The position numbers were made by a program, and so were the translations under genes. From NCBI GenBank assembly GCA_018857735.1, contig JABMCL010000883.1:808501-872500 (forward strand): a DNA stretch of 64,000 bases, read 5' to 3'. Below, in pieces: positions 7,346-53,687 of this stretch. The DNA is from Alviniconcha marisindica (lineage: Eukaryota > Mollusca > Gastropoda > Provannidae). A model generated the notes under the pieces. The model made no database searches, was not told the DNA's origin, and saw nothing but the letters and a program-made list of their open reading frames with translations. Every line of letters begins with the position of its first letter. Position 1 is the stretch's first letter.

Positions 7346-7370
7346 ATGAGTGGAGGAGTCTATGGAGGCG
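7346..7370 (+). CDS. ACTL6A: ACTL6A coding exon 1
   Basis: Encodes MSGGVYGG plus the first base of Asp9. The donor is GTGAGT. All eight residues equal the human start, which fixes the initiation codon. Confidence 0.93.
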
Positions 7371-11386: not shown

Positions 11387-11444
<58 letters not shown>

Positions 11445-14400
11445 TTCCCAGTCTGACAGCCTGAGATTGTCTCCTGTTGAGCTGGCCCAGTAGCTGCAGA
11501 AAGTGATTGTCTCCTGTTGAGCTGGCCCAGTAGCTGCAGAAAGTGATTGTCCCAGTAGAAGATTGCTGTCACAGTGTCACTCTAGGGCTGACATTGGAAC
11601 AGGGTGGAGAAGAGGTTCTGCGCTGGTTGGCTGGTCTGATGGAGGATGCTGTGCTGTACCAGAGACCAGAATACAACTGTACCTCACCAGATCTGGCAAC
11701 GGGCCATGAGTCATGACAACACAGTCAGTGACAACAGCTGCAATTGGAAGGGGGACAAAACGCAGAGCTTCTACAGTTCTTGGCAGATTCTGAGGCATAC
11801 ATGAGTTTTGTCAGAAAAAAAAAGTTACACATAGCTGGTGGATGGCTCACCCTTTAGTGACTTGCTCACTGAGTTTTGGTAAATTTGGAGGAAAGGCTTC
11901 AGAAAAGGAGTTTCATTTGTTTAAAAGTAAAACTATAAATAATAAAAGGAATGTTTATATTATATCAATATATGTATTTTTTATACATGGATGTGCTATT
12001 TCTCCAAACTGCAGCACATAGTCCATTACAATACAAAGCAAAGAACAAAGAAGCAAAACACAGTGATAGTCAAAACAAACTGACACAGACACTCACACAC
12101 ACCATCACCTCCACAGACTGTCAGTAGGATAGCTTGAAGAGGTGAGATTTTAGATTTCAAAGATGGTTTGAATACTTTGATGGTTGATTTTATTTTATGA
12201 TTCAGAAAAAGAATTGTGGTTACTGTTTTGACAGATGAGGTGGGAGCGTTGGTGTTTGACCTTGGGTCCTACTCCTTCAGAGCTGGCTATGCTGGTGAAG
12301 ACACGCCCAAGGTAAGTCACCAAAGGTGAGACGGTTGAGGGTAAGACACACCCAAGGTGAGACGGTTGAGGGTAAGACACACCCAAGGTAAGATGGTTGA
12401 GGGTAAGACACCCAAGGTGAGTCACCAAAGGTGAGACGGTTGAGGGTAAGAATCACCAAAGGTGAGACAGTTGAGGGTAAGACACACCAAAGGTAAGATG
12501 GCTGAGGGTTAGACACACCCAAGGTAAGACGTTTGAGGGTAAGACACACCAAAGGTGAGATGGTTGAGGGTAAGACACACCCAAGGTAAGACGGTTGAGG
12601 GTAAGACACACCAAAGGTGAGACGGTTGAGGGTAAGACACACCAAAGGTGAGACGGTTGAGGGTAAGACACACCAAAGGTAAGACGGTTGAGGGTAAGAC
12701 ACACCAAAGGTGAGACGGTTGAGGGTAAGACACACCCAAGGTAAGATGGTTGAGGGTAAGACACCCCAAAGGTAAGACGGTTGAGGGTAAGACACACCAA
12801 AGGTGAGATGGTTGAGGGTAAGAATCACCAAAGGTAAGACGGTTGAGGGTAAGACACACCAAAGGTGAGACGGTTGAGGGTAAGACACACCCAAGGTAAG
12901 ACGGTTGAGGGTAAGACACACCAAAGGTGAGACGGTTGAGGGTAAGACACACCAAAGGTGAGACAGTTCAGGGTAAGAATCACCAAAGGTGAGATGGTTG
13001 AACTTGAAGGTAAGAATCACCAAAGGTAAGATGGTTGAACTTGAAGGTAAGAATCACCAAAGGTAAGATGGTTGAACTTGAAGGTAAGAATCACCAAAGG
13101 TAAGATGGTTGAGGGTAAGAATCACCAAAGGTAAGATGGTTGAACTTGAAGGTAAGAATCACCAAAGGTAAGATGGTTGAGGGTAAGAATCACCAAAGGT
13201 AAGACAGTCAAAGGTAAGTCACCAAAGGTAAGACAACCAAGGATAAAGAGTCACCAGAGGTAAGAGGGAAAGACGTACCCAGGGTAAAATAAGAACTAAG
13301 ATACACCAAGGGTAAGACGCACCATCAGTAAACTCACAAAGGGCACACAAAAGGTAAGAAGCACATAGGGAAAGACACACCCAGGTTAAAACATGTCAAG
13401 GGTAAGATTAAACATACACCAAGACACACCAACTGGTACAGTAGTAGGATAAGACATCCAGGGTATGACCCACTAACTTGACTAAGGGTAAAACGCATCA
13501 AAGGTAAGAGGCACAGGGGTGGGTGGGGGGAGGTAAGACCTACTAACTGGCAAGACACCCAGGGTATGATACACTAAGAATAAAATGACCTAAAGGTTTG
13601 GACACCAAGGGTCAGCCACACCAAGATTAAGACTAAGGCACACCAAGGGTCAGATACACAAACTGGTAAGACACCAAGGGTCAGACATACCAACTGGTCA
13701 GACACCAAGGGTCAGATACACAAACTGTAAGACACCAAGGGTCAGACATACCAACTGGTCAGACACCAAGGGTCAGATACACCAACTGGTAAGACACCAA
13801 GGGTCAGACATACCAACTGGTCAGACACCAAGGGTCAGACACACCAACTGGTAAGACACCAAGGGTCAGACACACCAACTGGTCAGACACCAAGGGTCAG
13901 ACACACCAACTGGTAAGACATCAATGGTCAGTCCTTCCCACTGGTAAGACACCAACTGGTAAGACACCAATGGTCAAACACACCAACTGGTAAGACATTC
14001 ATAACATTTATATAGTGCCTAATCCAACTAGACTGGCTCAAAGCTCTTCACAATTCAAAACAAGAATGAACATCACAATCAAAACGTGAAACATGCATAC
14101 ACCAGACAATCCAACGCCAACCGCAAAGCGCAGGCAAACATGCACACATCACAGAACAATTAATGCAATCAAGACATGGACCATGGACACATCTCATGAT
14201 TGCAAGTCAAATGTAAAGTCGTCAATTTTTTTTATCATCCCTCATGGGGCAATTCAAGAGCATCATAATAATCATAAACATATGCAAGCTGGTTGGAAGG
14301 TTTGGGAGAACAAGTGGGTTTTCAACTGTGACTTAAATGAGGAGTATGTTTGTGTGTGGCGGATGGAGAAAGGCAGATTATTCCAGGTTACGGGACCCTG

Positions 14401-15691: not shown

Positions 15692-15726
<35 letters not shown>

Positions 15727-18700
15727 CACACTCACTGGGTAGGAAAGAATGGTGAGGATGCAAGAGTGTCATAAACAATACATTCTAACTTTCCAACAGT
15801 GGCAGTAAACAAAAGTTTGTGCCCGAAAAGTTTACAGTCATGAAACAACGACAACAAAAAGTGACATCATATTGGCATTACAGTTATTTCTAATAGTCGG
15901 TTTCACTGTCTGTCGTCCCGTGCTGTTCAAATTCTTATCCATTCTGTAAAAAAACCTACAGGAAGCTGACAAATCAGTCCTGCAAAAGAAAAAAAGAATA
16001 ATAATAAATGGAAGCAGACATAAAGCAACAAAAGGTGCACAACAAAAAACTATTCCCAGTTTGACAAGAAGTCAGGTAGGGTCAGTTTCAACTTTTGATT
16101 GTGTGCTTCAATTTTGTATCTTTTTTTCAACTCCTTTCTAAATGCACATAACTGAGGTTCGATTTTTTTCATATCTGCAACTATAGATAAAATATTTTGC
16201 ATACAGAATAATAAAATCAAGAACATTGTCACTTTTAAAATTATCATCTGTACCAAACAGTATATCTTATTTTTAGTGTCACTGTTAATGTCCACTATTT
16301 TAATATCTTTGGAGTTCTTGTTGCTTTTGGAAAGAGAAAGCACAAATTATATGGGCCTCTGTTTATTGTAATTGTCTGTACATTGTCTAAAACAAAAGTC
16401 TACACTTAAGTGAAATAAATAATGTTGCCATTTGGTGTTTTTTGGTAGGTTGTTACTGTTGGTTACTGATAAATAACGTAAGGATGGTTGAAATGTCGCA
16501 GGCAAAAGCATGGTCGTAGTCTGTTTCTGAGAAAAGACAGCAACGCTGCACAGCCCCTCATGTTTCATTGAAAAAAAGCATTTGGTCATGAATGTCAATG
16601 GCAAACCACACTCGACCATACATTGCATTGACACTGTACCTCAGCTGACTGACTTCCGTGGTTGACCAGTTTTCTTGAGCTCATGTCATCTGCCTGTGTG
16701 ATACCACTTTGAAAACAATGTCTAGGGTAATCTCTGATAAGACCAAAGGTAAGACGCACCAACAGTAGGCACACCACAAACACGCCAAGGATAGTCATGG
16801 ATACACCAAGCGTAAGTCTACAAGGTAAGACATTGGTCAGATACACCATAGGTAAGATACGTATATGTACGGTAAAACAACAAGGCTAAGACAAAGCTGT
16901 CTGCCTCTAGAGGACAGTGAAGCTTGACGCGCCAGGGGCAGTACGGTAAAACAACAGGGCTAAGACAAAGCTGTCTGCCTGTATGCAGAGGACTGAAGCT
17001 TGACGCCCCAGGGGCAGGGATTGACGGCCACTCTCGCTGTTTCAGGCCGAGATTCCCACTCATGTGGGAGTGGTGGAGGACATTGAAGCAGCCATGGAGA
17101 CAGAGGGTGGAGATGCTCCGGCTGCTCCAGAGAAGAAATACTTGATCGACACGGTGTACATGAAGCATCCTTGCAAGGGCATGGAGCTCATCAGCTTCCT
17201 CAAGGATGGCATGGGTAGGTGGGCTGGGGTCACTCCATGGGTAGGTGGGCTGGGGTCACTCCATGGGTAGGTGGGCTGGGGTCACTCCACGGTTGGGCGG
17301 GCTGGGGGTCACTCCATGGGTAGGCGGGCTGGGGTCACTACACAGGCAGGTGGGCTGGGGGTCACTACACAGGTGGGTGGGGGGTCACTACACAGTTGGG
17401 CAGGCTAGGGGTCACAACATGGGTGGGTGGGTGGGGGGGGGTCACTACATGGGTGGGGGGTGGGGGGGGGTCACTATGGGTGGATTGAGTGAGGGCCACT
17501 TCACGGGTAGGCAGACTTGTCATTCGATGGATAAATGGACTGAATGTCACTCCATGAGTAGGTAGACTGTGTGTCATGGGTAGGTGGTTTAGGCTCACTC
17601 CATGGGTAGATTGACTGGGTGTCACTCCATGGGTGGGTAGCCTGGGGGTCACTCCATGGGTAGATTGACTGGGTGTCACTCCATGGGTGGGTAGCCTGGG
17701 GGTCACTCCATGGGCAGGTAGATGCAGTCACTCAGTGGATAGGTAGACTGGATGTTACTCCATTGGTAGATTGAGTGGGGGTCACTCCATGGGTATACTG
17801 AACGGGGGTTGCTCCATGGGTGGGTAGACTGTCACTCCATGGGTAGATTGAGTGGGGGTCACATGGGTGGGTAGACTGTCACTCCACGGGTAGATTGAGT
17901 GGGGGTCACTCCATGGGTGGGTAGACTGTCACTCCATAAGTAGATTGAGTTGGGGTCACATGGGTGGGTAGACTGTCACTCCATAGGTAGATTGAGTTGG
18001 GGTCACATGGGTGGGTAGACTGTCACTCCACGGGTAGATTGAGTGGGGGTCACATGGGTGGGTAGACTGTCACTCCACGGGTAGATTGAGTGGGGGTCAC
18101 ATGGGTGGGTTGACTGTCACTCCACGGGTAGATTGAGTGGGGGTCACATGGGTGGGTAGACTGTCACTCCACGGGTAGATTGAGTTGGGGTCACATGGGT
18201 GGGTAGACTGTCACTCCACGGGTAGATTGAGTTGGGGTCACATGGGTGGGTAGACTGTCACTCCACGGGTAGATTGAGTTGGGGTCACATGGGTGGGTAG
18301 ACTCACTCCATTGGTATACTGAATGGGGATCACTCCATGGGTATACTGAGTGGGGGTCACTCCATGGGTGGGTAGACTGTCACTCCACGGGTAGATTGAG
18401 TGGGGTCACATGGGTGGGTAGACTGTCACTCCACGGGTAAACTGAGTGGAGGTCACATGGGTGGGTAGACTGTCATTCCATGGGTAGATTAAGTGGGGGT
18501 CACTCCATGGGTATGTAGACTGTCACTCCATGGGTATACTGAGTTGGGATCACTCCATGGGTAGGTACTAGGTAGATGTCACTCCATTGGGTATACTGAG
18601 TTGGGATCACTCCATGGGTAGGTGGATGTCACTCCATGGGTATACTGAATGGGCGTCACTCCATGGGTAGGTAGACTGTTCGGTGGGGGAGTGGAATGCC

Positions 18701-21002
18701 CCTGACCCCCTAGTTTCAGATGTTTTTTGTTTGTTTGTTGTTGTTGTCAATTCCCATGCCTGAAGATTGACTGGGTGTTACTCCACAGGTAGGTAGATTG
18801 ACTGAGTGTCTCTCCACAGGTAGGTAGACTAGGAGTCACTCTATCATCCATGGGTAGGTAGACTGGGTGTCACTCCATGGGTAGATAGACGGTGTCACTC
18901 CATGGGTGGATAGACAGTGTCACTCCATGGGTAGATGGACGGTGTCACTCCATGGGTAGGTGGACTGGGTGTTACTCCATGGGCAGATAGACGGTGTCAC
19001 TCCATGGGTAGATAGACAGTGTCACTCCATGGGTAGATAGACGGTGTCACTCCATGGGTAGGTGGACTGGGTGTCACTCCATGGGTAGATAGAGGTGTCA
19101 CTCCATGGGTAGACGGTGTCACTCCATGGGTGATAGACGGTGTCACTCCATGGGAGGTAGACTGGGTGTCACTCCATGGGCAGATAGACGGTGTCACTCC
19201 ATGGGTAGATAGACGGTGTCACTCTATGGGTGGATAGACAGTGTCACTCCATGGGTAGTGTCACTCCATGGGTGGATAGACAGTGTCACTCCATGGGCAG
19301 ATAGACGGTGTCACTCCATGGGTAGGTAGACTGGGTGTCACTCCATGGGTAGATAGATGGTGTCACTCCATGGGTAGGTAGACTGGGTGTCACTCCATGG
19401 GTCAGATAGACGGTGTAGGGTAGACTGGTACTCCATGGGTAGATAGACGGTGTCACTCCATGGGTAGGATAGACTGGTGTCACTCCATGGGTAGGTAGAC
19501 TGGGTGTCACTCCATGGGTAGATAGACGGTGTCACTCCATGGGAGTAGACGGTGTCACTCCATGGGTAGGTAGACTGGGTGTCACTCCATGGGAGATAGA
19601 CTGGTGTCACTCCATGGGTAGGTAGACTGGGTGTCACTCCATGGGTAGGTAGACTGGGTGTCACTCCATGGGTAGGTAGACTGGTGTCACTCCATGGGTA
19701 GTAGACGGGTGTCACTCCATGGGTAGGTAGACTGGGTGTCACTCCATGGGTAGGTAGACGAGTGTCACTCCATGGGTAGATAGACTGGTGTCACTCCATG
19801 GGTACGTAGTACTGGTGTGTTACTCCATGGGTAGGTAGATGTGTCACTCCATGGGTAAGGTCAGCTGGTGTCACTCCATGGGTAGTAGACGGTGTCACTC
19901 CATGGGTAGGTAGACTGGGTGTCACTCCATGGGTAGTAGACTGGTGTCACTCCTGGGTAGGTAGACGGTGTCACTCATGGGTGTAGACGTGTCACTCATG
20001 GGTAGGTACTGTGTCACTCCATGGGTAGGATAGACAGTGTCACTCATTGGGTGTCACCCATGAGTAGGTAGACAGATCTGGTAGTGATGGTTACCCGGTA
20101 CTAGCTGTGTGTCATTGGGTAGGAGAAGTACATGTGTTTGTCTGATTGGGTTACAGAAGTACTGTGGTTTGTCTGATTGGGTTACAGAAGTACAATGTGT
20201 TGTTGATTGGGTTACAGAAGTACTGTGTTTGTCTGATTGGGTTACAAAGTACATGTGTTTGTCTGATTGGGTTACAGAAGTACATGTGTTTGTCTGATTG
20301 GGTTACAGAAGGGACAGATATGTTTGCTGATTGGGTTACAGAAGTACATGGTTTGTCTGATTGGGTTACAGAAGTACATGTGTTTGTCTGATTGGGTTAC
20401 AGAAGTGCATTGTTTGTCTGATTGGGTACAGAAGTACACTGTTTGTCTGATTGGGTTACAGAAGTACAATATGTTTGTCTGATTGGGTTACAGAAGTACA
20501 CTGTGTTTGTCTGATTGGGTTACAGAAGTGCAATGTGTTTGTCTGATTGGGAACAGAAGTACAGTGTGTTTGATTGGGTTACAGAAGTACAATGTGTTTG
20601 TCTGATTGGGTTACAGAAGTACAGTGTGTTTGTCTGATTGGGTTACAGAAGTACAATGTGTTTGTCTGATTGAGTTGCAGTGGAGAACTGGGAGTGGGTC
20701 ATGTTTCAGAAGATGTGTAATATTTGCAGATATATTTGACAAGTTGGGTCACACTTGCAATGGAGAACAGGGACATGTTTGAGAAGTTGATGTGTAACAT
20801 TGACAGGTGTGTTTGACTGGTTGGGTTGCAGTGGAGAACTGGGACATGTTTGAGAAGGTGATGGATTATGTGTACAGTCGCAGCATCAAGTCAGAGTCTT
20901 GTCTTCATCCTCTGCTTATGTCAGAACCTGCAGTGAGTAAGCACACTCACACACCACACACACACACACACACACAGATGCATGTACACACACACACACA
21001 CA

Positions 21003-21059
<57 letters not shown>

Positions 21060-24000
21060 CAACCATGCATGTACACATACACACACACACACACACAAAG
21101 GAAAGCTTAAAGGCCTGTTTGATGCTGTAGCAGTGTTGTTGACTATGGACAAGGCATCCCAACGATGTCACGCTTTGACAGACATAGACAAAAATGTTAA
21201 AAGCCAGACAAAGTGTAAAATGAGACGGTGATGGTCAAGCTGGGAACCACCACTGTGGAACAGGTTAAAGCGTACTTTAGTACTGTAGAAGAAAAGTAAG
21301 CCAGTAGAGGGCTGAAGCAAAACAAGAAGTGGAAACATGATTCAGTGATTTTGGGTGTTCACAATCAAGGAAACACGATTCAGTGATTTTGGGTGTTCAC
21401 AATCAAGGAAACACGATTCAGTGATTTGGGTGTTCACAAACAAGGAAACCATTCACTGTTTGGGGAAACAAAGGGTAAAAGCGTATTTGGGGTTACAATA
21501 AAGGGAAAAGGGGCCAGTGAGGGCTGAAGCAAAACAAGAAGTGGAAACACGATTCAGTGATTTTGGGTGTTCACAGTCAAGGAAACCCGGTTCAGTGATT
21601 GGGTGTTTACGGTCAAGGAAACCCGGTTCAGTGATTGGGTGTTCACAATCAAGGAAATGTAATAGTCCCATTGGAACCCACCTGACCACCCATCAGTGAC
21701 TGTATTGTGTTTGTTGTCATTGTGTCTTACTCTGCAGTCCAGTGCTTTGTGCCTTGCACTGGGTTGTAGTTGTACAATTGTTACACAGTTATAGGCATAC
21801 AGCACCGTTCAATTGTTTGTTGCTGTTGCATGAGACTGTTTGTTCTTCATCACCATTCAGTCAAATTTGCCTCTTGCAGGACTTAGACCGCAGTTCATTG
21901 CCTTAAGTGATATATTGTGATTTACTTGGTCACATTGATGTATGTTACGATGACTGCAGTGGCGATGTCATCGATTGCTGTTGTGGGGTTATATCCCTTG
22001 ATATTGGCAGTGCCTTTACAGGATTGTTATTTCATGACAGAGTCACTTCAGTCTGTGCTTCATGACGGAACCACTGCTGTCTGCGTTTCATGACAGAACC
22101 ACTTCAATCTGTGTTTCAGTGGAACACCAAAGCAAAGCGGGAGAAGATGACAGAGATCATGTTTGAGAAGTACAACATTCCAGCGTTCTTCCTGTGCAAA
22201 AACTCGGTCCTGTCTGCGTATCCTGATTTAATTAAGCAATCACCACTTGTTGGTGCACTGTGTAGTCCAAACAGCAGTTTGTTCTTGTCTGGAGCTGTCA
22301 AGTCATAGCATTTTATCTGTGAACGTGAGTTATTTCACTGTGAAGTAACCAGCGTACTTTAATAATGATAGCGGTCATTTCTGTAGTGCCATATATATAT
22401 ACTTTAATAACGATAGTGGACAATAGTGGTCATTTCTATGATACCATATCTCACCGACAAGGGTTAGCATGCCGCACTTTACAAGATCAACTATAATGTG
22501 TACATTAAAACCTCAGAAATGATCCCTTGTCCACCACACACACCCACACCCTGATTCATAGTATTGTATTCCTTGCACACCACACCCACCCACATACTCA
22601 CACCCCTATACATAGTATTGTATTCCTTGCACCCCGCACCCAACAGGGTGCACAGAAAGAATGTAACAAGGAGTGAGGGAGGGTAACTGGGTGGGGTGGG
22701 CAAGTAAGAAGACAGAATTTGAAATCACTTTTGGTATTGTTTACAGAGGTTAGTTCTTAACACAGTTTTGCAGGCATGGGAGGACTGAATGTGACAGATG
22801 TCAAAAAGGGGAGAATTCCATTGGTTGGAACACAGTAGGAGAAACAGCGTTGGCCAAAAGTTTTTGTTCTAACAATAAACATGGGGGATACGAAGTGTCT
22901 GTGTGTCTGCAGAAGAACGAAGCTGCCTGGAAGGGGTGTACACTGTGAGATGGTCAGAGAAATAGGCAGGAGATGAGTCAGAGAAGTTGTGACAGATAGT
23001 TAACAATAACAGTTTGTAGTGTATTCTGGCATGGACTAGTAACCAGTGAAGAGGTTGCACATGGCCACATGTGTGTGCTTTGAACAGCAGTTTCACTGCA
23101 GTTCTAAACTTTATGCAGTCTACTGAGAAGGTAAAAGTGGCAGTCAGAAGAGAATTACAATAGTCTAACCTGGAAAGGACAAAGACACAGACAACAGTTT
23201 GGTTGCTTCAGCAGCGAGGCACTGGCAGATGCATCTGATTTCCACATAAGCAGGACTGGTAGACAGTGAAAATGTGCTCGTCAAGATCATTCTGTCTAAA
23301 ATGGGGAAACCAGGTTGCGAGCACAGGTCGTAAAAGGAACGTCAGCAGTGCCAACACAAAGAGAAGTAGGCTGACCTTGACCTTGACCAACAAGCCTGTA
23401 CGTCGCCTGTGGTGTGCCCTTTTTTATGTTCCATCTTCTGTCCTTGACTCAGTTTATCCCATGTCTTAGCAGGAACTTAGGAGTGTGATTCTGAAGTCCA
23501 AGCCCACAACCTACTCGTTTGACCCCATTCCTACCTGACTGACCCTTGACTGCTTAGATGACCTTCTACCGACTCTGGCTCAGGTTGTTGCTGACAGTCT
23601 GCTGGTTGTTTGCTTTCCATCAGGATTAAAAAATATGCTGTAGTTGAACCACACCTCACAAAGCCGACACTTGACCACAAAAACCCTGAGGACTACCATC
23701 CTGTCTCAAACCTTACATTCTTGTCCAAAGGCAAAGTCATTGAGAGAATAATTCTACAGCAGTTCTTTGCCTGCTAGAGCTCCCATGACCAGCTCTGCCC
23801 CTCTCAGTCTCCCTGCCATCCGTGTCAGCACTGAGGCAGCTGTACACAAAGTGGCTAATGAATTCTGTGGGCTCTGGATGGTGGTGATGTGTCTGTATCA
23901 GTATGACTTTATCTTGACCCTTCTTTGATCTGTCTTCTGCTTTCAATACCGTCAACCATTACGTATACTTCAGGTATGGGAATTGTCAGTGTCCAGTGAG

Positions 24001-24613: not shown

Positions 24614-24645
<32 letters not shown>

Positions 24646-35704: not shown

Positions 35705-35767
<63 letters not shown>

Positions 35768-38700
35768 GTGATGAAATATAGTAACTGGGTCTGTGATCTT
35801 TTTTGTTTGGTGTTCTTGCACATGAGTTTGTGGTTGTGTGTACTTATCTGACATAAATCTTTTATATATAGTGATGACACTGACAGTATGTTAATGACTT
35901 AATCTCTTTGGTATATATATAGATGTGACAGAGATGACAGTGTTGATCACTTTGGTATATAGTGGTGACACTGTTGATCACTTTGATATATTGTGGTGAC
36001 AGTGTTGATCACTTTGGTATATAGTGGTGACAGTGTTGATCACTTTGGTATATAGTGGTGACAGTGATGACAGTGTTGATCACTTTGGTATATAGTGGTG
36101 ACAGTGTTGATCACTTTGGTATATAGTGGTGACATTGATGACAGTGTTGATCACTTTGGTATACAGTGGTAACAGTGATGACAGTGTTGATCACTTTGGT
36201 ATATAGTGGTGACAGTGTTGATCACTTTGGTATATAGTGATGACAGTGTTGATCACTTTGGTATATAGTGATGATGGTGTTGATCACTTTGGTATATAGT
36301 GGTGATGGTGATGACAGTGTTGATCACTTTGGTATTTAGTGATGACAGTGTTGATCACTTTGGTATATAGTGGTGACAGTGTTGATCACTTTGGTGTATA
36401 GTGGTGACAATGATGACAGTGTTGAACACTTTGATATATAGTGGTGACAGTGTTGACCACTTTGGTATATAGTGGTGACAGTGTTGATCACTTTGGTATA
36501 TATATATAGTGGTGATGGTGATGAGAGTGTTGATCACTTTAGTATATAGCGGTGACAGTGATGACAGCATTAGTCACTTTGGTATATAGTGGTGACAGTG
36601 TTGATCACTTTGGTATATATAGTGGTGATGGTGATGACAGTGTTGATCACTTTAGTACATAGCGGTGACAGTGATGACAGCATTGGTCACTGGTATATAG
36701 TGGTGACAGTGTTGATCACTTTGGTATATATAGTGGTGATGGTGATGACAGTGTTGATCACTTTGGTATATATAGTGGTGACGGTGATGACAGTGTTGAT
36801 CACTTTGGTATATATAGTGGTGACGGTGATGACAGTGTTGATCACTTTGGTATATATAGTGGTGACGGTGATGACAGTGTTGATCACTTTGGTATATATA
36901 GTGGTGACGGTGATGACAGTGTGTGATTCCTTTGGTTTCCTTAGGAGGCAGTGGGTGACAAAATGCCGGCCAAATGGAAGAAGAAAGAAAACATTGACGT
37001 CACCAAATCTTTCCACAACTACATGGAAAAGGTACAGCTCATTGCAAAGTACATGCTATAATACTCTGCAAGTCTGTCCACAACTGCACTGTACAACTTA
37101 TGCCATTTCTGTCCTCATATCCATGGAAAGGTTCTTCTGTTGAGTAGACTTACAACTTGTAGTTGTACCCGGTCTGTCCACAACTGCACGGTACAACTTA
37201 TGCCAAATCTGTCCACCGACCTGTGGAAAGGTTCTTCTGTTGAGCTTGTACCAAATCTGTCCACAACTTCATGGAAAAGTGTTTTTCAGTAGAATTACAT
37301 TATATAAAAAGGTCTGTACAACTTGTTACTAAATCTTCCCATAACTCCATGAAAAGGTTCTTTTGGTAGAATTACAACTTGTTATTAAATCATTCCACAA
37401 TCCATGGAAAGCTCCAATTCAGTAGAATTACAACTTGTTATTACATCATTCCACAGTTCCATGGAAAGCTCCAGTTCAAAGTAGAATTGCAACTTGTTAT
37501 TAAATCATTCCACAACTCCATGGAAAGCTCCAGTTCAAAGTAGAATTACAACTTGTTATTAAATCATTCCACAATTCCATGGAAAGCTCCAGTTCAAAGT
37601 AGAATTACAACTTGTTATTAAATCATTCCACAACTCCATGGAAAGCTCCAGTTCAGTAGAATTACAACTTGTTATTAAATCATTCTACAACTCCATGGAA
37701 AGCTCCAGTTCAGTAGAATTACAACTTGTTATTAAATCATTCCACAACTCCATGGAAAGCTCCAGTTCAATAGAATTACAACTAGTTATTAAATCATTCC
37801 ACAACTCCATGGAAAGCTCCAGTTCAGTAGAATTACAACTTGTTATTAAATCATTCCACAACTCCATGGAAAGCTCCAGTTCAGTAGAATTACAACTTGT
37901 TATTAAATCATTCCACAACTCCATGGAAAGCTCCAGTTCAAAGTAGAATTACAACTTGTTATTAAATCATTCCACAACTCCATGGAAAGCTCCAGTTCAG
38001 TAGAATTACAACTTGTTATTAAATCATTCCACAACTCCATGGAAAGCTCCAGTTCAGTAGAATTACAACTTGTTATTAAATCATTCCACAACTCCATGGA
38101 AAGCTCCAGTTCAAAGTAGAATTACAACTTGTTATTAAATCATTCCACAACTCCATGGAAAGCTCCAGTTCAATAGAATTACAACTAGTTATTAAATCAT
38201 TCCACAACTCCATGGAAAGCTCCAGTTCAGTAGAATTACAACTTGTTATTAAATCATTCCACAACTCCATGGAAAGCTCCAGTTCAAAGTAGAATTACAA
38301 CTTGTTATTAAATCATTCCACAACTCCATGGAAAGCTCCAGTTCAAAGTAGAATTACAACTTGTTATTAAATCATTCCACAACTCCATGGAAAGCTCCAA
38401 TTCAGTAGAATTACAACTTGTTATTAAATCATTCCACAACTCCATGGAAAGCTCCAGTTCAGTAGAATTACAACTTGTTATTAAATCATTCCACAACTCA
38501 ATGGAAAGCTCCAGTTCAAAGTAGAATTACAACTTGTTATTAAATCATTCCACAACTCCATGGAAAGCTCGAGTTCAGTAGAATTACAACTAGTTATTAA
38601 ATCATTCCACAACTCCATGGAAAGCTCCAATTCAGTAGAATTACAACTTGTTATTAAATCATTCCACAACTCCATGGAAAGCTCCAGTTCAAAGTAGAAT

Positions 38701-41700
38701 TACAACTTGTTATTAAATCATTCCACAACTCCATGGAAAGCTCCAGTTCAGTAGAATTACAACTTGTTATTAAATCATTCCACAACTCCATGGAAAGCTC
38801 CAGTTCAAAGTGGAATTGCAGCTTGTACCAGCTACTGAGTGAACATCACACACTTTGATTTGACAGCAAGTTCAACAAGAGGTTTGCGTTCAGTGCTCTT
38901 TTCACAGTATTGTGTCAAGCATTCACTGAAGTGTTTTTGTTTCAGGATGTGTACCAAGATTTTGCAGCATCCATTTTACAGGTGTGTGACACTCCATATG
39001 ATCCAAGGTGCGTATGCATGTGCTCAGATATGAATCGGTCTACTGTCCATCTCTCTTTGTCTCTCTCTGTCCATCTGTCTGCCTGTCTGTCTTTGGAAAA
39101 GCACCAGTTCCTTCACCCCTTTCAGTCTGGATTTAGACACAAATACTCCTGCAACACTGCATTAGCACACCTTACAAATTCTTGGCAAACAGTCATAAAT
39201 AAATCTGATATTTCTGGTGTGGTTTTCCTAGACCTAAAGAAGGCTTTTGAGATGATATTGTTGATGCTAAAATCACAGAAATTTGCCTCTTGTCTGCACA
39301 TTATGTAGACATTAAACTCTAACTAACACACATACGCACACGGACACCTGCATAATTTACGGACAAGTAGCAATCATATCAGGGGATCCGGCATAAAATA
39401 CTGTCAGATAAAGGCAACTTTAAAAACCCTTATTTCCAAGACACCCATACACATAGCTGTCAACCCCTTTTGGGAGTAAGCCTTAGTCCACAGTTTGTTA
39501 ACCTGTATTTCCCTTATGCAGGCCGGGGTCTTTTGTTTTTTTGCTGGTGGCAGCGGCATTTTGAATTTAAAAAAAAAAAAAGTGGCAGTGGAAGGAAGAA
39601 GCAATGTTGTGCAAAATACACATTCACGACTTCAAATCTCACTTTTGATGAGATTTATTGCACTAGGCCAATCAGTGTGCATTTGGCGAGGGCGTGTGTT
39701 GGCTGCTCCTTCGGCAGTTTTTCAATCTTTTTGCTCAGTTTAAAACAAAACTGAAAATTGTGTTTTCCTGGATCCATTTTCCAATATGGCCATATCCCCA
39801 CCAAAATAATGAAAAAAATGTATTTTATACTAGTAAACTGTATGGGTTGACAGGTATGCATACATATACAGACAATGGTCATGGCTGTGTCACACCCTGA
39901 CCTAGAAATCTTGACATCCTATTGAAGAAGTTCACCAGTTATTTTAAAAACTTATGTTCTCTACCAGTTTTTAAAAATTGTAGCATGATAACAGAATGCA
40001 GAATGTCTTACTACATGACTCTTCTCTGAGGACTCAGTAAAGTTTGGTGTACCACAAGGTTCGGTCTTCGGACCTATTCTGTTTAGTCTCTTTATTAATG
40101 ACCTTCCATTACATAAAAAATGTGTGTTGACTGTGACATGTTCATGATGTTGGCAGATGACGCAACACTGCACACATCTGGACAAGATATTCTACAAATC
40201 AGATATGCAAGAAAAATTAGATCAGGTATTCAACTGGTGTGATAATAATCATATATGTGACCCGTTCTCATGAAGTGAGTCTTAACTTAAAAATGAACAA
40301 TTTGAGATATCTGCATGTCTCAAATCTGCAAATTCTGCTTGTTATTTTGATACTTAAATCATGTTTCTACTCAAAAAAATGTGGATGTGATATGTTTCTG
40401 AAGGTTCCATGTGTGGCAGAGGCCATTTTGAGAAAATCAGCTTTAAGGTTTTCACTGTGCATTGAGTAGTTTTTCCTTTAATCCTTAGCAACAGGAGGTT
40501 TAAATGTACGAATCTTTACCAATTTTGGCACAGGAACATATCAAACATTTGGGGCACCCGAAGAGACTTGAAAGAGACTAGTTAGTTTTTAATGTGCTTT
40601 GTCAATGTTTTTAATCCCATGCTCTCAGTCTAAAATGAGCAAAATGTATTCCAGGTAGCATGAATAAAATGTGTTTTAAACATATTTATTCAACTTTTCA
40701 GAGCATATCAGTGCAAACACACCAATGTTTAATGCTTATAGACTTTAATTTCACAAAAATCAGAAAACATCCAGATAGACCCCCACTGACTGCTTTTGCC
40801 TAGCACAGTAAGCCGGCTGCGAGTTAAGACTCAATTGGTGAGAACAGGTCACATATGGTCATCAGTCTGATCAAGACCAAGTCTGTGACAATCTGTTCGT
40901 GTCAATCGCTACCGGACAGAAACACTAGCTGTTACCCTTACTGCTCGATCTCATTTTATGTGAAGCAAAAATTTATCAAGTGTTGAAGCACCATTTTTAG
41001 GTATAACCATAGACAGTAAACTTCACTGGGACCCACATACTGATAATGTGTGCAAAACAGTTTTGAGACAAGTCTGCCTTCTGTATAAGCTAAGGTACTA
41101 TGTAGACAACTGACACCAGGAAACATGTTCTTTAATGCCCACGTTAAGCCTCACATTGGTTATGCATCAATCGTGTGGGACAGATGTAGTGATGTTCTCA
41201 AAAAAAGATTAAATTGTCTGCACAGAAGAGCTGACCAGAAATTAAAAGAGATGAAGACAATGAGTCTACACAAACAACTGGATTAGCCTACAGCTAGAGT
41301 CTGTTCATGTACAGGGTCCTTAACAATGAGGCCCCAGAGTATATACCTAACCCTAGCCCTCCCTCATGTTATTCAACTTTAGGAACTATCACTTTATTCT
41401 GCTTACGCCAAGGATAGACATTTTCAAAACAAGTATAGCCTACTCTGGTAACAACCAGAGAACCTTAATCTCTATGGGACAACCTACCTCCAACAGTCAG
41501 GGCGTGTCACTCACTCAGTTCCTTCAAGTGAAAACCTTCAACCAGAGAACCTTAATCTCTATGGGACAACCTACCTCCAACAGTCAGGGCGTGTCACTCA
41601 CTCAGTTCCTTCAAGCGAAAATTTGTGTGCATGTCTTGGAGCAGTTACATAGGATGGATTGTGACAGGAAACTGCTGGAGAGAGAAAGAGAGACAGAGAG

Positions 41701-42105
41701 GTTTTTGAGTGATTGGCATGGCCATTGCAGTGATTGGTCATGCCTAGCTTCTACACCCATTCAGTTCCATCCAGTCCTGACTTGCTGACTGCTTGTGCAA
41801 GTGAAGCTTTTGCTTCTTTTCTCTCCCTTATTGTTGCTTATAACAATAGCATTGCTTGCTTCTGCTTTATTCTCCAACGTTAGTAATAGTAGCTTATATG
41901 AATTTGTCAGATGTTCATCTGGTTTATCAGTTGGTTGTATGCTTATACATATATATAACTGAGTGATGTATGCATGTATACACTCTGTGCATATAGCGTT
42001 GTGAACATGCAAAGATTTTGAGTGGAAGTTCTTGCACTCCATGTATAAATTTTTATTGAATTAGATTTCACTCATTTATTCACGCTTCACATAATGATAA
42101 TACAC

Positions 42106-42156
<51 letters not shown>

Positions 42157-43192: not shown

Positions 43193-43229
<37 letters not shown>

Positions 43230-46200
43230 GTCTTGTTGTCTTTATTATTTGTACAAATTGTAGTACAGCAAGGACTGGCTGTTTCTATGTGTTCCATGTG
43301 TGCAAACGGACCTAGTGCTGCTAACCTTCAGTATTAAATGAGATCCAAACACATAAAGCTTCAAAAGAACGCTATTTATTAGGACAAAAACACACAATTT
43401 GCAAATTTAGGGGTAATCCCCTTTGGACTAGCACTGGACAAGAAAACAACCCCAAAGTGATTTATTTTTCATCATTTTTCACCATTTAAATATTGTTTAA
43501 GTGTCAGTTTTATAGCTTGACAAAGAGGATTACCACAACTATTTGCAAATTGTGTGTTTTTGACCTAATAAATAGCATTCTTTTGAACTTTATGTGTTTT
43601 GGATCTTGTTTTAGAATGCTGGCCAGTCATTCTTGTTTCAGATTTTTTTATTTTTTTATCTCCTTTTTTCTTGAGTATTAAAGTTTTCAAGTTCGAGTTC
43701 TTTCTCTCCCACAAAAGTTCATTTGTCCCAACTTCCTTGGTACTGGCCACTTACACCTCTCCTTCACTAGCCACTCTGTCACCTCTCCTTCACTAGCCAC
43801 TCTCCATCAGCTCTCCTTCACTAGCCACTCTGTCACCTCTCCTTCACTAGCCACTCTGTCACCTCTCCTTCACTAGCCACTCTCTGTCACCTCTCCTTCA
43901 CTAGCCACTCTCTGTCACCTCTCCTTCACTAGCCACTCTCTGTCACCTCTCCTTCACTAGCCACTCTCTGTCGCCTCTCCTTCACTGTCCACTCTCCGTC
44001 ACCTCTCCTTCACCAGCCACTCTCTGTCACCTCTCCTTCACTATCCACTCTCTGTCACCTCTCCTTCACTATCCACTCTCTGTCACCTCTCCTTCACTAG
44101 CCACTCTCTGTCACATCTTCACCAGCCACTCTGTCACCTCTCTTTCACCAGCCACTCTCTGTCACCTCTCCTTCACTATCCACTCTCTGTCACCTCTCCT
44201 TCACCAGCCACTCTCTGTCACCTCTCCTTCACCAGCCACTCTCTGTCACCTCTCCTTCACCAGCCACTCTCTGTCACCTCTCCTTCACCAGCCACTCTCT
44301 GTCACCTCTCCTTCCCCGCCACTCTCTGTCACCTCTCCTTCACCATCCACTCTCTGTCACCTCTCCTTCACTGTCCACTGTCTGTCACCTCTCCTTCACC
44401 AGCCACTCTCTGTCGCCTCTCCTTCACTGTCCACTGTCTGTCACCTCTCCTTCACCAGCCACTCTCTGTCGCCTCTTCTTCATTGGCCACTCTGTCGCCT
44501 CTCCTTCACTGTCCACTGTCTGTCACCTCTCCTTCACCAGCCATTCTCTGTCACCTCTCCTTCACCAGCAACTCTCTGTCACCTCTCCTTCACCAGCCAC
44601 TCTCTGTCACCTCTCCTTCACCAGCCACTCTCTGTCACCTCTCCTTCACTGTCCACTGTCTGTCACCTCTCCTTCACCAGCCACTCTCTGTCACCTCTCC
44701 TTCACCAGCCACTCTCCTTCACCAGCCACTCTCTGTCACCTCTCCTTCACTGTCCACTGTCTGTCACCTCTCCTTCACCAGCCACTCTCTGTCACCTCTC
44801 CTTCACCAGCCACTCTCCTTCACCAGCCACTCTCTGTCACCTCTCCTTCACTGTCCACTGTCTGTCACCTCTCCTTCACCAGCCACTCTCTGTCACCTCT
44901 CCTTCACCAGCCACTCTCTGTCACATCTTCACCAGCCACTCTCTGTCGCCTCTCCTTCACCAGCCACTCTCTGTCACCTCTCCTTCACCAGCCACTCTCT
45001 GTCACATCTTCACCAGCCACTCTCTGTCACCTCTCCTTCACCAGCCACTCTCTGTCACCTCTCCTTCACCAGCCACTCTCTGTCACCTCTCCTTCACCAG
45101 CCACTCTCTGTCGCCTCTCCTTCACCAGCCACTCTGTTACTTCCACTCTGCGTTCGCTGGCCACTCTGTTGCTGTTATTAGGACAAGTGTGCTAAACAGT
45201 GTTCTACAGCAAGTGTTACCATTGCCTCCACAGCCTGGTGGATTCCATGCCTGCTGTCCATTATGAGTTTCCTAATGGCTACAACCAAGACTTTGGCAGC
45301 GAACGATTCAGAGTCTGCGAGGGCCTCTTTGACCCCTCCATCATCAAAGTAATTGACTGTGCATACCATGTTTTATGTGGGTGTGTGAGTCTCTACCTCG
45401 TTGACTAACTGACTTAGTGTGTGTACCATGTTTTATGTGTATGCATGGTTCTGTGTACATACCTCATTGACTGTGTCTTCTGTGTTTTATGTATGTGCTT
45501 GAATCAATGATTCTGTGTGTTCTATTTTTTTTGTGTGTGTATGATTCTTTATACCTCATTGATGTGTATGATTCTATGTACCTCACTGACTCAGCGACTG
45601 TGTGTTTTATGTGTGTGTGTCTGATTCTGTGTACCTCTTTGGCTGTGTGTAGTGTGTACCTCAACTGGCTGCATGCTCTACATTTTCTCTGTGTGTGTGT
45701 GTGATTCTGCGTGCCCCTAACTGTGTGTTCTGTTTTGTGTGTGTGTGATTCTGTGTGCCTGATTGTGTGTTTTGTGTTAGATACATATGTGTGTGTGTGT
45801 TGGGGGGAGGGTGGGGGGGGGAACAAATACCACTGAATGTCAGATTTTCCCTTTGGGGTTTTACATAGCATCAAACGATTGTGCCATTTAGACAAAAACA
45901 ACAACAACAAAAAACAAGAATTTGATTCTCGCCAAGGTAAAGCACAAGGAATGTTTCTTGGTGATGGTTCATTCATTCATCATCACTGTCACATTTGTAG
46001 GGCCATACAACAACAGCAATGGTAATATCACATTTCATTCATTTCGTTCATCATCACTGTCACAACAACAGCAATGGTAAAATCACATTTCATTTATCAT
46101 CACTGTCAAAACTGTAATGATATCACATTTCATTCATCATCACTGTCAAAACTGTAATGATATCACATTTCTTTTATCATCACTGTCACAACAACAGCAA

Positions 46201-49200
46201 TGGTAATATCACATTTCATTCATCATCACTGTCACAACAACAGTAATGGTAATACCACATTTTGTTCATCATCACTGTTGCAACAACAGTAATGGTAATA
46301 CCACATTTCATTCATCATCACTGTCGCAACAACAGTAATGGTAATACCACATTTCATTCATCATCACTGTCGCAACAACAGCAATGGTAATATCACATTT
46401 CATTCATCATCACTGTCACAACAACAGTAATGATATCACGTTTCTTTCATCATCACTGTCACAACAACAGTAATGGTATTATCACCTTTCATTTATCATC
46501 ACTGTCACAACAGTAATGATATCACATTTCTTTCATCATCTCTGTCACAACAACAGTAATGGTATTATCACATTTCATTTATCATCACTGTCACAACAAC
46601 AGTGATGGTATCACATTTCATTCACCATCACTGTCACACCTGTAGGGCCATACAACAACGATAATGATATCACATTTCATTCATCATCACTATCACATTT
46701 TATTCATCATCACTGTCACAACAACAGTAATGATATTATCACATTTCATTCATCATCACTATCACATTTTATTCATCATCACTGTCACAACAACAGTAAT
46801 GATATTATCACATTTCATTCATCATCACTGTCACAACAACAGTAATGATATTATCACATTTCATTCATCATCAATGTCACAACAGTAATGATATTATCAC
46901 ATTTCATTCATCATCAATGTCACAACAACAGTAATGATATTATCACATTTCATTCATCATCACTGTCACAACAACAGTAATGATATTATCACATTTCATT
47001 CATCATCAGTCTCACAACAGTAATGATATTACCACATTAGCAGTACACTTGGCAGTCTCTATTGTTTTCATCACTCACACTGCTGCTGACAAAAACGGCC
47101 AGGTTTACTGGTATGCTGAAGCATTAGGGATGTCTGCTATTTTGGCCACTAAGTGGCACTTCATTATTTCACAACAAGGTTTGCCTGTGATATGTGTAGC
47201 TCTAGTGACATGTTGATGTATGTTCTGTACAGGAAGCACAGGGTAGCTGTATGCTGTACAGTGTGTTGACACAGTGTTGATGTGTGTGTGTGTGATATAC
47301 AGGAAGCACAAGGCAACTCTATGCTGGGCGTGGGGCACGTGGTTACCACCAGTGTTGGCATGTGTGATATTGACATCAGACCAGTGAGTACTCCAGCTTC
47401 GCCTCTTGTCTTCCCTTTGTTCCAGATGCTATATCAGTGCTTAGGTAATACCACGTCTACCCCCACCCCCCCCCACCCCCACCCCCCCACCCCACCCCAC
47501 CCCACCCCTGTTTTTTTATACGTTAGTTTCCCCTTGACAATTTCCCTATACATAGGTGAAAGTATGCCCATATCCATGTATAGAGATTTATGACCGAATT
47601 AATGTGTATGTGCAGATCTCCGTAAACAGGAAAATGGACATGAGTGAAACAGAATGGCCCACCCCTGGGTACAGTGTCAGGGATGGGAGCTTTGGGCTAA
47701 TCTCATGGTACAGTGTCAGGGATGGGTGCTTTGGGCTAATCTCTTGGTACAGTGTCAGGGATGGGTGCTTTGGGCTAATCTCTTGGTACAGTGTCAGGGA
47801 TGGGTGCTTTGGGCTAATCTCTTGGTACAGCGTCAGGGATGGGTGCTTTGGGCTAATCTCTTGGTACAGCGTCAGGGATGGGTGCTTTGGGCTAATCTCT
47901 TGGTACAGCGTCAGGGATGGGTGCTTTGGGCTAATCTCTTGGTACAGCGTCAGGGATGGGTGCTTTGGGCTAATCTCTTGGTACAGCGTCAGGGATGGGT
48001 GCTTTGGGCTAATCTCTTGGTACAGCGTCAGGGATGGGTGCTTTGGGCTAATCTCTTGGTACAGCGTCAGGGATGGGTGCTTTGGGCTAATCTCTTGGTA
48101 CAGTGTCAGGGATGGGTGCTTTGGGCTAATCTCTTGGTACAGTGTCAGGGATGGGTGCTTTGGGCTAATCTCTTGGTACAGTGTCAGGGATGGGTGCTTT
48201 GGGCTAATCTCTTGGTACAGTGTCAGGGATGGGTGCTTTGGGCTAATCTCTTGGTACAGCGTCAGGGATGGGTGCTTTGGGCTAATCTCTTGGTACAGCG
48301 TCAGGGATGGGTGCTTTGGGCTAATCTCTTGGTACAGCGTCAGGGATGGGTGCTTTGGGCTAATCTCTTGGTACAGCGTCAGGGATGGGTGCTTTGGGCT
48401 AATCTCTTGGTACAGTGTCAGGGATGGGTGCTTTGGGCTAATCTCATGGTACATTGTCAGGGATGGGTGCTTTGGGCTAATCTCATGGTACATTGTCAGG
48501 GATGGGTGCTTTGGGCTAATCTCTTGGTACATTGTCAGGGATGGGTGCTTTAGGCTCATCCCCAGATGAAGAACTTGGAAAGGGTTCGTTATTATTATTG
48601 AGATTAAAAATAAGAGCTTTTTCGTGCCATGGGGTAGGCCGACGACTAACAAAACATTATAAACCCTCTCCTTTCTGTTTCTGAGTTTGTATGGTGGGCT
48701 TTGGGCTAATCCCATGGTACAGTGTCAGGGATGGGAGCTTTAGGCTAATCCCATTGTACAGTGTCAGGGATGGGAGATTTAGGCTTATCCCAGGGTACAT
48801 TGTCAGGGATGAGTGCTTTAGGCTTATCCCAGGGTACATTGACAGGGATGGGTGCTTTGGGCTCATCCCCAAGTGAAGAACTTGGAAAGGGTTCGTTATT
48901 GTTATCCTTATTGAGATTAAAAATAAGAGCTTTTTCGTGCCATGGGGCAGGCCGACGACTGTAACAAAACGTTATAAACCCTCTCCTTTCTGTTTCAGAG
49001 TTTGTATGGTGGGGTGATTGTTGTAGGTGGAAACTCTCTTCTTCAAGGATTCACAGATCGGCTGAACCGTGACCTTGGCAACAAAACGCCACCCGTGAGT
49101 TGTTTGAGCTTTTTCATCTGTCTAACTTCCTGTTATGTTAGTAATTATTTCAGGTGTTCAATCTTTTAACTTCACTTGCCTTATTTCACCTGTACTTTCA

Positions 49201-52200
49201 AGTAGTTCATATTCTGTTAGTGATAGAAAAGTGTGAATAATTGTGCCTAATATATGCATGTGGATCATTTGGTAATAATGATTTGGATGATCAGACTAAG
49301 AGTGTATGGTGTAGTGTGAGTACATAGATCCAAAGGACCACAGTGTGCGAGTGTTATGAAATTGTTGAAAGGTGACTTCACTTTTTGTGATTTCCTTGTT
49401 TGCAAGTTTAGACAGAGCCTGGTGACAGTTCTTTTCTCTTCCCTGTATAATTTTGTGTGTGGTGCAGTGAGATGTAGGTCGTGGACCGTAAAGTGGACAG
49501 TTTTTGATCAGACTTCACTGAAGGAGAGTGGTTTTTTGGACTGTGGACATTGGTGAAACAATTGTCAGGATCACAACACCATCTGTAAAGGTCATTACTG
49601 TGATCACGATGTTCCTTTGCCTGACGGAGCATGTGACTGAAGATCATTGCTGGTATTACGATGTTCCTTTGCCTGACAGAGCATGTGACTGAAGATCATT
49701 GCTGTGATCATTATGTTCCCTTGATCATTGCTGTAATTATGATGTTCCTTTGCCTTACAGAGCATGTGACTGAAGATCATTGCTGTAATTACGATGTGCC
49801 TTTGCCGTACGGACCATGTGACTGAAGATCATTGCTGTAATTACGATGTGCCTTTGCCTGACAGACCATGTGACTGAAGATCATTGCTGTAATTACGATG
49901 TGCCTTTGCCTGACAGACCATGTGACTGAAGATCATTGCTGTGATCATGATGTTCCCTTGATCATTGCTGTAATTATGATGTTCCTTTGCCTGACAGAGC
50001 ATGCGACTGAAGATCATAGCCGCTGCCAGTTCTGCGGAGAGGCGATTCAGCAGCTGGATTGGAGGGTCCATTTTGGCTTCTCTGGTCAGTTACCCATATG
50101 TGTGTTCGTTTGAGAGAGACATGGAGAGATGTTAGCAAGTGAGAGGTACTGGAATCAGTACCTAAACCTTCAAACCTCTCTTTTATTGAGGAAATATTAT
50201 GTTAAACAGTAACATTTACTTTTCACTCACTTTGCAAAAAGAAGAGTCTATGATGCAAATAGTCATGCTCAGTGCCATGTTTGCCAAGCAGGTAGGCATG
50301 CCAGAAACTTCACTGTTGCTAATTTTGGGTTGCATGCTATAATTGTGATCAGTGTGACACCTCATTGTTGCCATTTTGGGGGGTATGTGCAAAGGTTTGT
50401 GATCAGTATTATTGTTGTCATTTTTGGGGTATGTGCTATGATTGTGATCAGTGTCAAAATTCATTGCCATTTTGGGGCACACGCTATAATTGTCATCAGT
50501 GTCAAACTTCATTGTGGTTTTTTTTGTGGGTTATGTGCTATGATTGTGATCAATGTCAAAATTCATTGTTGCCATTTTGGGGGGTACGTGGTATAATTGT
50601 CATCAGTGTCAAACCTCAATGTTGCCATTTTTGGAGGTATGTGCAATAATTGTGATCAGTATTAAACTTCACTGGTGCCATTTTGGGGGGTATGTGCTGT
50701 ACCTTGTCATCCGTGTGGAATTTGACATCAGTCTTACCAGAAATGTGGTGTGTTTTTTCTCTCTGTTTTGTTTCTTCAGTTTTCCAGCTAGGCACCAGAG
50801 TATGTGCTGCACTTTGGTTGGAAGGAGGGGTGTACAGTGACTATTTGTAGCACTTTAGTAGGAGGGAGGGGTACACAGTGACTATTTATAGCATTTTGGT
50901 TGGAAGGATGGGTGCACAGTGACTGTTTGTAGCACTTTGGTTGGGGTAGGGGTGCACAGTGACTATTTATAGCACTTTGGTTAGAAGAAGGGGTGCTCAG
51001 TGACTATTTATAGCACCTTGGTTGGAGGGAGGGGTGCTCAGTGACTATTTATAGCACTTTGATTGGAAGGAGGGGTGCTCAGTGACTATTTACAGCACTT
51101 TGGTTGGAAGGAGGGGTGCTCAGTGACTATCTATAGCACTTTGGTTGGAAGGGGGGGTGCACAGTGACTATAGCACTTTGGTTGGAGGGAGGGGTGCTCA
51201 GTGACTATTTATAGCACCTTGGTTGGAGGGAGGGGTGCTCAGTGACTATTTATAGCACCTTGGTTGGAGGGAGGGGTGCTCAATGACTATTTATAGCACT
51301 TTGGTTGGAGGGAGGGGTGCTCAGTGACTATTTATAGCACTTTGATTGGAAGGAGGGGTGCATAGTGACTATAGCACTTTGGTTGGAGAGAGAGGTGCAC
51401 AGTGACTATTTATAGCACTTTGGTTAGGGGAGGGGTGCACAGTGACTATTTACAGCACTTTGGTTGGAGGGAGGGGTGCACAGTGACTATTTATAGCACT
51501 TTGGTTAGGGGAGGGGTACACAGTGACTATCTATAGCACTTTAATTGGGGGAGGGGTACACAGTGACTATTTATAGCACTTTGGTTGGAAGGGGGGTGCA
51601 CAGTGACTATAGCACTTTGGTTAGGGGAGGGGTGCATTGACTATTTATAGCACTTTGGTTAGGGGAGGGGTGCATTGACTATTTATAGCACTTTGGTTGG
51701 GGGAGGGGTGCACGGTGACTATTTATAGCACTTTGGTTGGAAGGAGGGGTGCACAGTGACTATTTGTAGCACTTTGGTTAGGGGAGGGGTGAACAGTGAC
51801 TATTTATAGCACTTTGGTTAGGGGAAGTGTGCACAGTGACTGTTTATAGCACTTTGGTTAGGGGAGGGGTGCACAGTGACTATTTATAGCACTTTGGTAA
51901 GGGGAGGGGTGTACAGTGACTATTTATAGCACTTTGGTTAGGGGGAGGGGTGCACAGAATATTTATAGCACTTTGGTTGGGGGGAGGGGTGCACAGTGAC
52001 TATTTATAGCACTTTGGTTAGGGGGAGGGGTGCACAGTGACTATTTATAGCACTTTGGTTAGGGGGAGGGGTGCACAGTGACTATTTATAGCACTTTGGT
52101 TAGGGGGAGGGGTGCACAGTGACTATTTATAGCACTTTAGTTAGGGGGAGGGGTGCACAGTGACTATTTATAGCACTTTGGTTGGGGGAGGGGTGCACAG

Positions 52201-53687: not shown

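Follow-up and report, generated by a model that had tools for sequence, protein, structure and literature searches.

Here, we analysed a 64,000-nt stretch of DNA (the window) drawn from the 817.6-Mb assembly of the gastropod Alviniconcha marisindica. The window holds the complete gene for ACTL6A (BAF53) at positions 7346..53687 of the plus strand, the 3' end of an ETFRF1-like gene of the LYR family and, on the minus strand, TSSC4 (Pfam PF15264, 6.1e-17), which is a U5 snRNP assembly factor. ACTL6A was modelled with tblastn and GT/AG splice sites and consists of 14 coding exons separated by 13 GT-AG introns. The model yields an open frame of 426 amino acids, whose product carries a Pfam Actin domain (8.7e-145) and is 92% identical over 100% of the sequence to the protein of Babylonia areolata, 91% to that of Littorina saxatilis and 90% to that of Nucella lapillus, values that mark the animal as a caenogastropod. 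The coding exons are:

7346-7370, plus strand, ACTL6A coding exon 1
12235-12311, plus strand, ACTL6A coding exon 2
17046-17214, plus strand, ACTL6A coding exon 3
20832-20932, plus strand, ACTL6A coding exon 4
22120-22217, plus strand, ACTL6A coding exon 5
30480-30574, plus strand, ACTL6A coding exon 6
34601-34707, plus strand, ACTL6A coding exon 7
36945-37031, plus strand, ACTL6A coding exon 8
38946-39007, plus strand, ACTL6A coding exon 9
45234-45348, plus strand, ACTL6A coding exon 10
47303-47383, plus strand, ACTL6A coding exon 11
48999-49094, plus strand, ACTL6A coding exon 12
49998-50084, plus strand, ACTL6A coding exon 13
53607-53687, plus strand, ACTL6A coding exon 14, stop included

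The introns total 45,061 nt, and 22,299 nt thereof (49%) are tandem arrays with a period of at least 10 as detected by TRF; outside ACTL6A, such arrays occupy 21% of the rest of the window. When each array is collapsed to a single unit, intron 3 shrinks to 232 of 3617 nt and intron 11 to 284 of 1615 nt, while 696 and 461 nt are left of introns 6 and 8. An array in intron 5 (window 26287-27092) has a unit that includes telomere-like TTAGGG repeats. An open frame at 38859-39305 takes in exon 9 together with a fragment resembling a reverse transcriptase (PF00078, 0.00032, under the curated cut-off) that lies in intron 9, which contains no junction copies. Fragments at 5425-5500, 55714-55900 and 57090-57200 have, by eye, the appearance of tRNA-derived SINEs.

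Compared by eye with the proteins of Babylonia, Littorina, Nucella and Patella, the exon edges of ACTL6A appear conserved. All four relatives have a protein of 426 amino acids, exactly the length that is obtained when the exon-proximal splice sites of the snail gene are used. This conservation implies that the exon-proximal sites are the ones in use, and we infer that the mRNA is spliced there. It also identifies the exon as the founder and the array as the copy, in line with the original prediction that the true junction is the conserved starting point.

That prediction had claimed, for nearly every ACTL6A intron, a repeat unit or duplicated block that contains a recognisable copy of the adjacent exon edge with its donor or acceptor. 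We searched with 30 exonic plus 30 intronic nt of each junction (D for the 3' end of the given exon, A for the 5' start of the given exon) against its own intron, self excluded, and against the 12 other introns. A junction was flagged when the score in its own intron, a simple match count, was over 3 points higher than in any of the others. By this rule, the own intron holds the best copy for 12 of the 26 junctions. Both boundary types are affected, with six donors (D2 38, D3 31, D6 20, D7 31, D8 28, D10 19) and six acceptors (A4 36, A5 22, A8 19, A11 26, A12 41, A13 47). A wrong-intron control flagged none of the 26 junctions in each of 12 shifts, and none of 1000 own-junction shuffles attained the score of any of the 12. 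The flagged junctions sit in introns 2, 3 (both ends), 4, 6, 7 (both), 8, 10 (both), 11 and 12, i.e. in 9 of 13 introns, which falls short of 'nearly every'. Intron 9, which had been listed among the affected ones, gave no own-junction copy in this search (D9 12, A10 10), nor did introns 1, 5 and 13.

The copies differ in how much exon they carry. The best ones are long, namely those of A13 (50/53 identical), A12 (43/45), D2 (44/48) and A4 (48/59) with 15-29 exonic nt; those of D6 (28/35) and D8 (45/60) have 30 exonic nt each. Copies of D3, D7, A5 and A8 share only 5-9 exonic nt and thus represent not a copied exon but an array that starts at the junction or extends across it, so that a recognisable exon edge does not extend to all 12; A8 and D10 are weak matches (score 19 each). 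In a search with 40 exonic nt only, the own intron came out top for 9 of 26 edges, by a margin of at least 5 for D6, D8, A4, A11 and A13, by 3 for D4 and by 1 for D2, while D13 and A12 were merely tied; scores reached 28. The arrays and copies concerned are listed here (a slash marks the exon end):

12299..13266, plus strand, intron 2 array, 31-nt unit with the exon-2 end and donor (ACACCAAAG/GTAAG; TRF)
13640-13997, plus strand, second array of intron 2, related to the first
17210..20052, plus strand, donor-side array of intron 3, ~26-nt unit CATGG/GTAGGTGGGCTGGGGTCACTC
20124..20863, plus strand, acceptor-side array and blocks of intron 3 with the acceptor copied; score 39, z 11.2
22030..22118, plus strand, intron 4 array adjoining exon 5, 28-nt unit; score 22, 6 exonic nt
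30613..32796, plus strand, intron 6 array, 62-nt unit with ~35 nt of the exon 6 end and the donor; z 10.0
34708..35800, plus strand, donor-side copies in intron 7; score 31, 7 exonic nt
35916..36936, plus strand, acceptor-side array of intron 7, stopping 8 nt before exon 8; weak junction match, score 19
37069..38807, plus strand, intron 8 array, 57-nt unit with ~30 nt of the exon 8 end; 31 hits
45396..45438, plus strand, weak copy in intron 10 of the exon 10 end and donor region; score 19
47210..47256, plus strand, single copy in intron 10 of the exon 11 acceptor with 24 exonic nt; score 26
48391..49013, plus strand, ~307-nt block duplication in intron 11, 2 copies; score 41
49588..50017, plus strand, intron 12 array, 52-nt unit with the exon 13 acceptor and ~23 exonic nt; score 47, z 11.1

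Several of these arrays reach into the exon itself. The intron 2 array runs over the last 13 nt of exon 2, the donor-side array of intron 3 (score 31, 5 exonic nt) has its start 5 nt within exon 3, and the intron 12 array overlaps 20 nt of exon 13; overall, TRF arrays extend at least 5 nt into the exon at 5 ACTL6A junctions. Towards exon 4, the closest acceptor-side blocks carry up to ~41 nt of this exon, and the exon edge is present in 2 of 14 A4 hits. On the donor side of intron 7, a 65-nt array (34720-34911) starts 12 nt past the donor and a further copy lies at 35653-35689. The weak donor copy in intron 10 has 14 exonic nt and is identical at 32/44 positions, and the exon 11 acceptor copy lies 47 nt upstream of the real acceptor as a single 47-nt duplication. 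The ~307-nt block of intron 11 bears the exon 12 acceptor with 15 exonic nt and has lost the AG in its copy at 48654-48698. In introns 10 and 11 the predicted junction-bearing repeat thus holds for block duplications but not for the main array units (46 nt and 39 nt, respectively), which lack a junction match (scores 8-10). More generally, introns 10, 11 and 13 and the 3' flank have main array units that were ruled out as junction copies (scores 7-12), as were the array units of intron 9 (scores 7-10). We do not claim the second intron-6 array as a derivative of D6 (score 11), nor a relation of the third intron-6 array to the exon-6 end, where a score of 15 is spread over a long gapped stretch.

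The reverse comparison, in which every array is matched against all junctions as had been proposed for checking the idea, gave a partial correspondence. Of the 34 arrays, 7 matched their nearest junction better than the other 25 (one tied; 1.3 expected), and five of these 7 matches (D2, A4, D6, A12 and A13) outscored all 100 shuffles. The intron 2 array best matches D2, and none of 100 shuffles reaches this score; the intron-8 array matches D8, the farther of its two junctions. That junction sequence is copied in tandem at many exon ends, with units that match their own junction and not others, is hence borne out.

Copies were counted by local alignment with thresholds of 12-14, and reversed introns provided the chance scores. 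For D2 the chance score (12) equals the threshold and for A4 (15), A5 (14) and A11 (16) it lies above it, and weak copy rows of these four junctions may be chance matches; 5 of 6 A11 hits are TG-type repeats. The families comprise 40 (D2), 20 (D3), 14 (A4), 37 (D6), 31 (D8) and 6 (A13) hits, the D6 hits closest to the exon being degenerate. Among covering hits, the donor GT is kept in 38/40 (D2), 19/20 (D3) and 33/36 (D6) copies and mostly lost in those of D8 (3/29 keep it); the acceptor AG is kept in 9/10 (A4), 4/6 (A13) and 0/1 (A12) copies. By a nine-position consensus count, the true donor of intron 6 (window 30575-34600) scores 7/9, while 34 decoy donors in this intron reach at least 8/9. 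Copies of D3 (rho 0.76) and D8 (0.61) are more similar to the array consensus the farther they lie from the junction, the near-junction copies of intron 8 being the most divergent ones; copies of D2 are less similar (rho -0.58), and for D6, A4 and A13 no trend was significant. Edge divergence is therefore not general.

We extended the junction search to other genes of the same genome, placing their exons by comparison with human proteins and by a consensus rule. Junctions set at the wrong position would in most cases reduce the number flagged, unless a repeat copy had been mistaken for the exon. The gene sets were picked by family and not randomly. The actin-family set (ACTR1A, ACTR2, ACTR3 plus four further loci; 34 introns) yielded 6 flagged junctions out of 68 (control 0-1/68). 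Two cases are strong, an acceptor of an actin-like gene (score 50, 30 exonic nt) and an ACTR2 donor (score 30, 8 exonic nt); the remaining four score 18-23, one without intronic and one without exonic nt. This count omitted one ACTR2 intron and three gapped pairs, which removed an intron (L015) flagged in a first, smaller count (7/58, 29 introns), and by hand also repeat copies in an actin-like gene with a 91-nt unit; the smaller count had omitted junctions that scored below 8 or were unresolved (L016, one of L013, one of L018). The CCT set (TCP1, CCT3, CCT4, CCT5, CCT6 and CCT7; 43 introns) took stretches from seven of the contigs with PF00118 matches. There, 8 of 86 junctions were flagged, in 5 of 6 genes (control 0-1/86), all aligned over 46-62 columns that include 16-30 exonic nt, with scores of 26-54; 9 intron candidates were skipped, one stretch (L035) had no usable intron, and three CCT5 exon-start repeat copies, themselves mirage copies (see below), were left out by hand. 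This CCT5 exon start (query residues 243-257) occurs four times at 85-nt spacing (L032, 5648-6052, minus strand), and the last copy runs on into the exon. The controls show that junction copies are specific to their own locus in these genes, too. Altogether 26 of 180 counted junctions were flagged, some of them weakly, with 12/26 in ACTL6A and 14/154 in the rest; own-edge matching, which had been proposed as a genome-wide check, is seen in the other sampled genes at a lower rate, and ACTL6A is the extreme among the sampled gene sets. Outside the counted sets, and found afterwards, an actin-like paralogue (L012, ~1.1-1.7 kb, minus strand) carries 6.7 copies of a 91-nt unit at 99%, composed of 25 nt of intron with the acceptor and 66 exon-like nt. 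It looks like the youngest of the mirages found.

But, are junctions a preferred substrate of duplication, or is placement blind? The former was the core of the original prediction, in which introns expand outward from exon ends; junctions would then be hot spots, through transcription- or splicing-coupled breakage. It is supported by the array edges of ACTL6A, which lie within 10 nt of 7 of 26 junctions, while 1.28 are expected from within-intron permutation (p 0.0001); within 50 nt the result is marginal (8 versus 4.9, p 0.05). We dropped this permutation as proof of seeding, because its null bars arrays from crossing exon ends and thus understates what blind duplication would yield. A founder test collapses the introns, counts each array as a single founder and lets founders overlap exon ends; for ACTL6A, it gives 2.1-2.7 junction founders under blind placement. 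A looser count of 6-8 founders in ACTL6A exceeds this 2-4-fold (p 0.04 to 0.0002) and rests on judgement of which arrays copy a junction. A mechanical rule free of that judgement, by which an array must extend at least 5 nt into the exon, leaves 5 junction-crossing arrays in ACTL6A alone (p 0.06-0.12 or 0.14-0.56). Pooled over 90 introns it finds 11 such arrays versus 7.75-10.93 expected (p 0.16-0.53), without ACTL6A 6 versus 5.0-5.9, and with the threshold tightened to at least 10 nt 9 versus 6.7-10.0. These counts lie at the blind expectation and lead us to favour blind duplication, but they err on the low side, since D6, D8 and three CCT junctions out of eight escape the rule. In addition, random intronic points were repeated (score of at least 19) more often than junctions, with 65% versus 12/26 (46%) in ACTL6A, 20% versus 5/68 in the actin family and 15% versus 9/86 in the CCT genes, a comparison that sets expanded arrays against single junctions and so shows just that junctions are not exceptional. 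Arrays are also present at a distance from any junction (introns 5 and 9), in the 3' flank and within the TSSC4 coding exon (minus strand), which contains two frame-keeping minisatellites (3084-3214 and 3669-3874, units of 36 and 30 nt). Involvement of both donors and acceptors and a positive GC skew in 13 of 18 measured arrays would fit the hot-spot idea. The skew is negative in the other 5, though, and G-quadruplex motifs are confined to the donor array of intron 3 (21) and one in intron 11, on which ground we reject R-loops, one of the causes that had been suggested, or G-quadruplexes as a general cause. With random points repeated more often and mechanical counts near the blind expectation, we reject junction hot spots as a needed cause; a modest junction excess may exist in ACTL6A alone. 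We consider junction-seeded growth unlikely as an explanation, and it is slightly more doubtful still that the ACTL6A introns were built largely outward from their own junctions by duplication aimed at exon ends, with the true junction as the conserved founder of each array, and that this is a main route of intron growth in caenogastropods.

Selection could instead have favoured spare splice sites, with arrays of intact donors or acceptors that buffer splicing or slow it as decoys. The dinucleotides kept in most copies of D2, D3, D6 and A4 and the 34 intron 6 decoys that outscore the true donor point this way, but since copying multiplies a small number of founder mutations, retention is little independent evidence. 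Moreover, most D8 copies have lost the GT and the A12 copy its AG, and the frequency of junction copies does not exceed what is predicted from blind duplication, making such selection very improbable. Misassembled or noisy repeats are less probable again. A second contig of the same assembly (L009; G000:C1913:1-10000, 10.8 kb) is a palindromic fold-back of ACTL6A introns 5-6 that carries the exon-6 junction and array and folds back within the intron-6 array; it may be another allele or an artefact. Against an artefact, copies within arrays differ by substitutions, families differ between introns, and other genes on other contigs have a like architecture. Chance, or similarity through the GT/AG signals common to all junctions, is the least credible account. 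It might be thought of for A8 and D10, which score just 19, whereas the wrong-intron control and the shuffles rule it out for the ten stronger junctions and exon letters alone suffice for scores of up to 28.

We therefore favour as the probable explanation that these are mirage-type minisatellites, which arise from blind, very active tandem duplication and are tolerated because the exon-proximal splice site survives. Duplication, likely blind and very active, would strike anywhere in this snail genome, and some events would copy a short stretch across an exon end with its splice signal in tandem into the adjacent intron. Where one breakpoint falls in the exon and the other in the intron, the original exon and splice site would stay intact, so that selection would tolerate the event; of duplications inside an exon, only those in frame would escape removal. 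The copies may then be amplified and homogenised by slippage or unequal exchange, while the spliceosome would keep to the exon-proximal site despite dozens of intact decoys downstream. By this route, shorter ancestral introns would have lengthened in place.

The name mirages was coined for tandem repeats across exon-intron boundaries in amphioxus Adh3, and such repeats also occur in globins (PMC3087553), a precedent that the original prediction, aware of single splice-site duplications only, had missed. As far as the accessible parts of the two sources describe them, mirages have gene-specific units of 10 to ~160 bp, affect both 5' and 3' boundaries and keep AG/GT in many copies (PMC3087553, PMC3902484). 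PGBD5 is a further example with repeats of 60 and 108 bp (PMC3902484); Gb9 is a mirage gene as well, and the globin Gb6 mirage has 6 and 3 units in two haplotypes, which thus differ in length (PMC3087553). Boundary copies escape homogenisation, and RT-PCR suggests that splicing is undisturbed (PMC3087553). The snail arrays show the same sequence features, namely a boundary-spanning unit, both boundary types, specificity for the locus and many copies with AG/GT kept. They differ in that amphioxus is a cephalochordate with one or two affected boundaries per gene and few units, whereas ACTL6A of this gastropod has 12/26 boundaries and dozens of copies over 2 kb, and in that regular splicing is RT-PCR-supported in amphioxus and deduced from the genomic sequence in the snail. 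The Rogers model of intron gain likewise starts from tandem duplication of sequence with splice signals but creates a new intron from a duplication with AG/GT proto-splice sites, in so far as it is outlined alongside mirages (PMC3087553), whereas in the snail existing introns would grow. Ordinary intronic minisatellites, to which most of ACTL6A's 34 arrays belong, have the same array sizes and units and differ in that the unit lacks an exon edge.

In the accessible parts of these sources, mirages are reported from lancelets only and proposed as a source of new introns. A molluscan mirage was not among the matches listed in a search of the open-licence full-text literature, a scope that most subscription papers fall outside. 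New here are the mollusc host, the density in one gene and the spread to other genes of the genome. The snail mirages are thus a candidate general route of intron growth. They turn into countable questions whether duplication prefers junctions and how the spliceosome would pick the exon-proximal site among dozens, some intact decoys being better than the real site by a simple consensus count.
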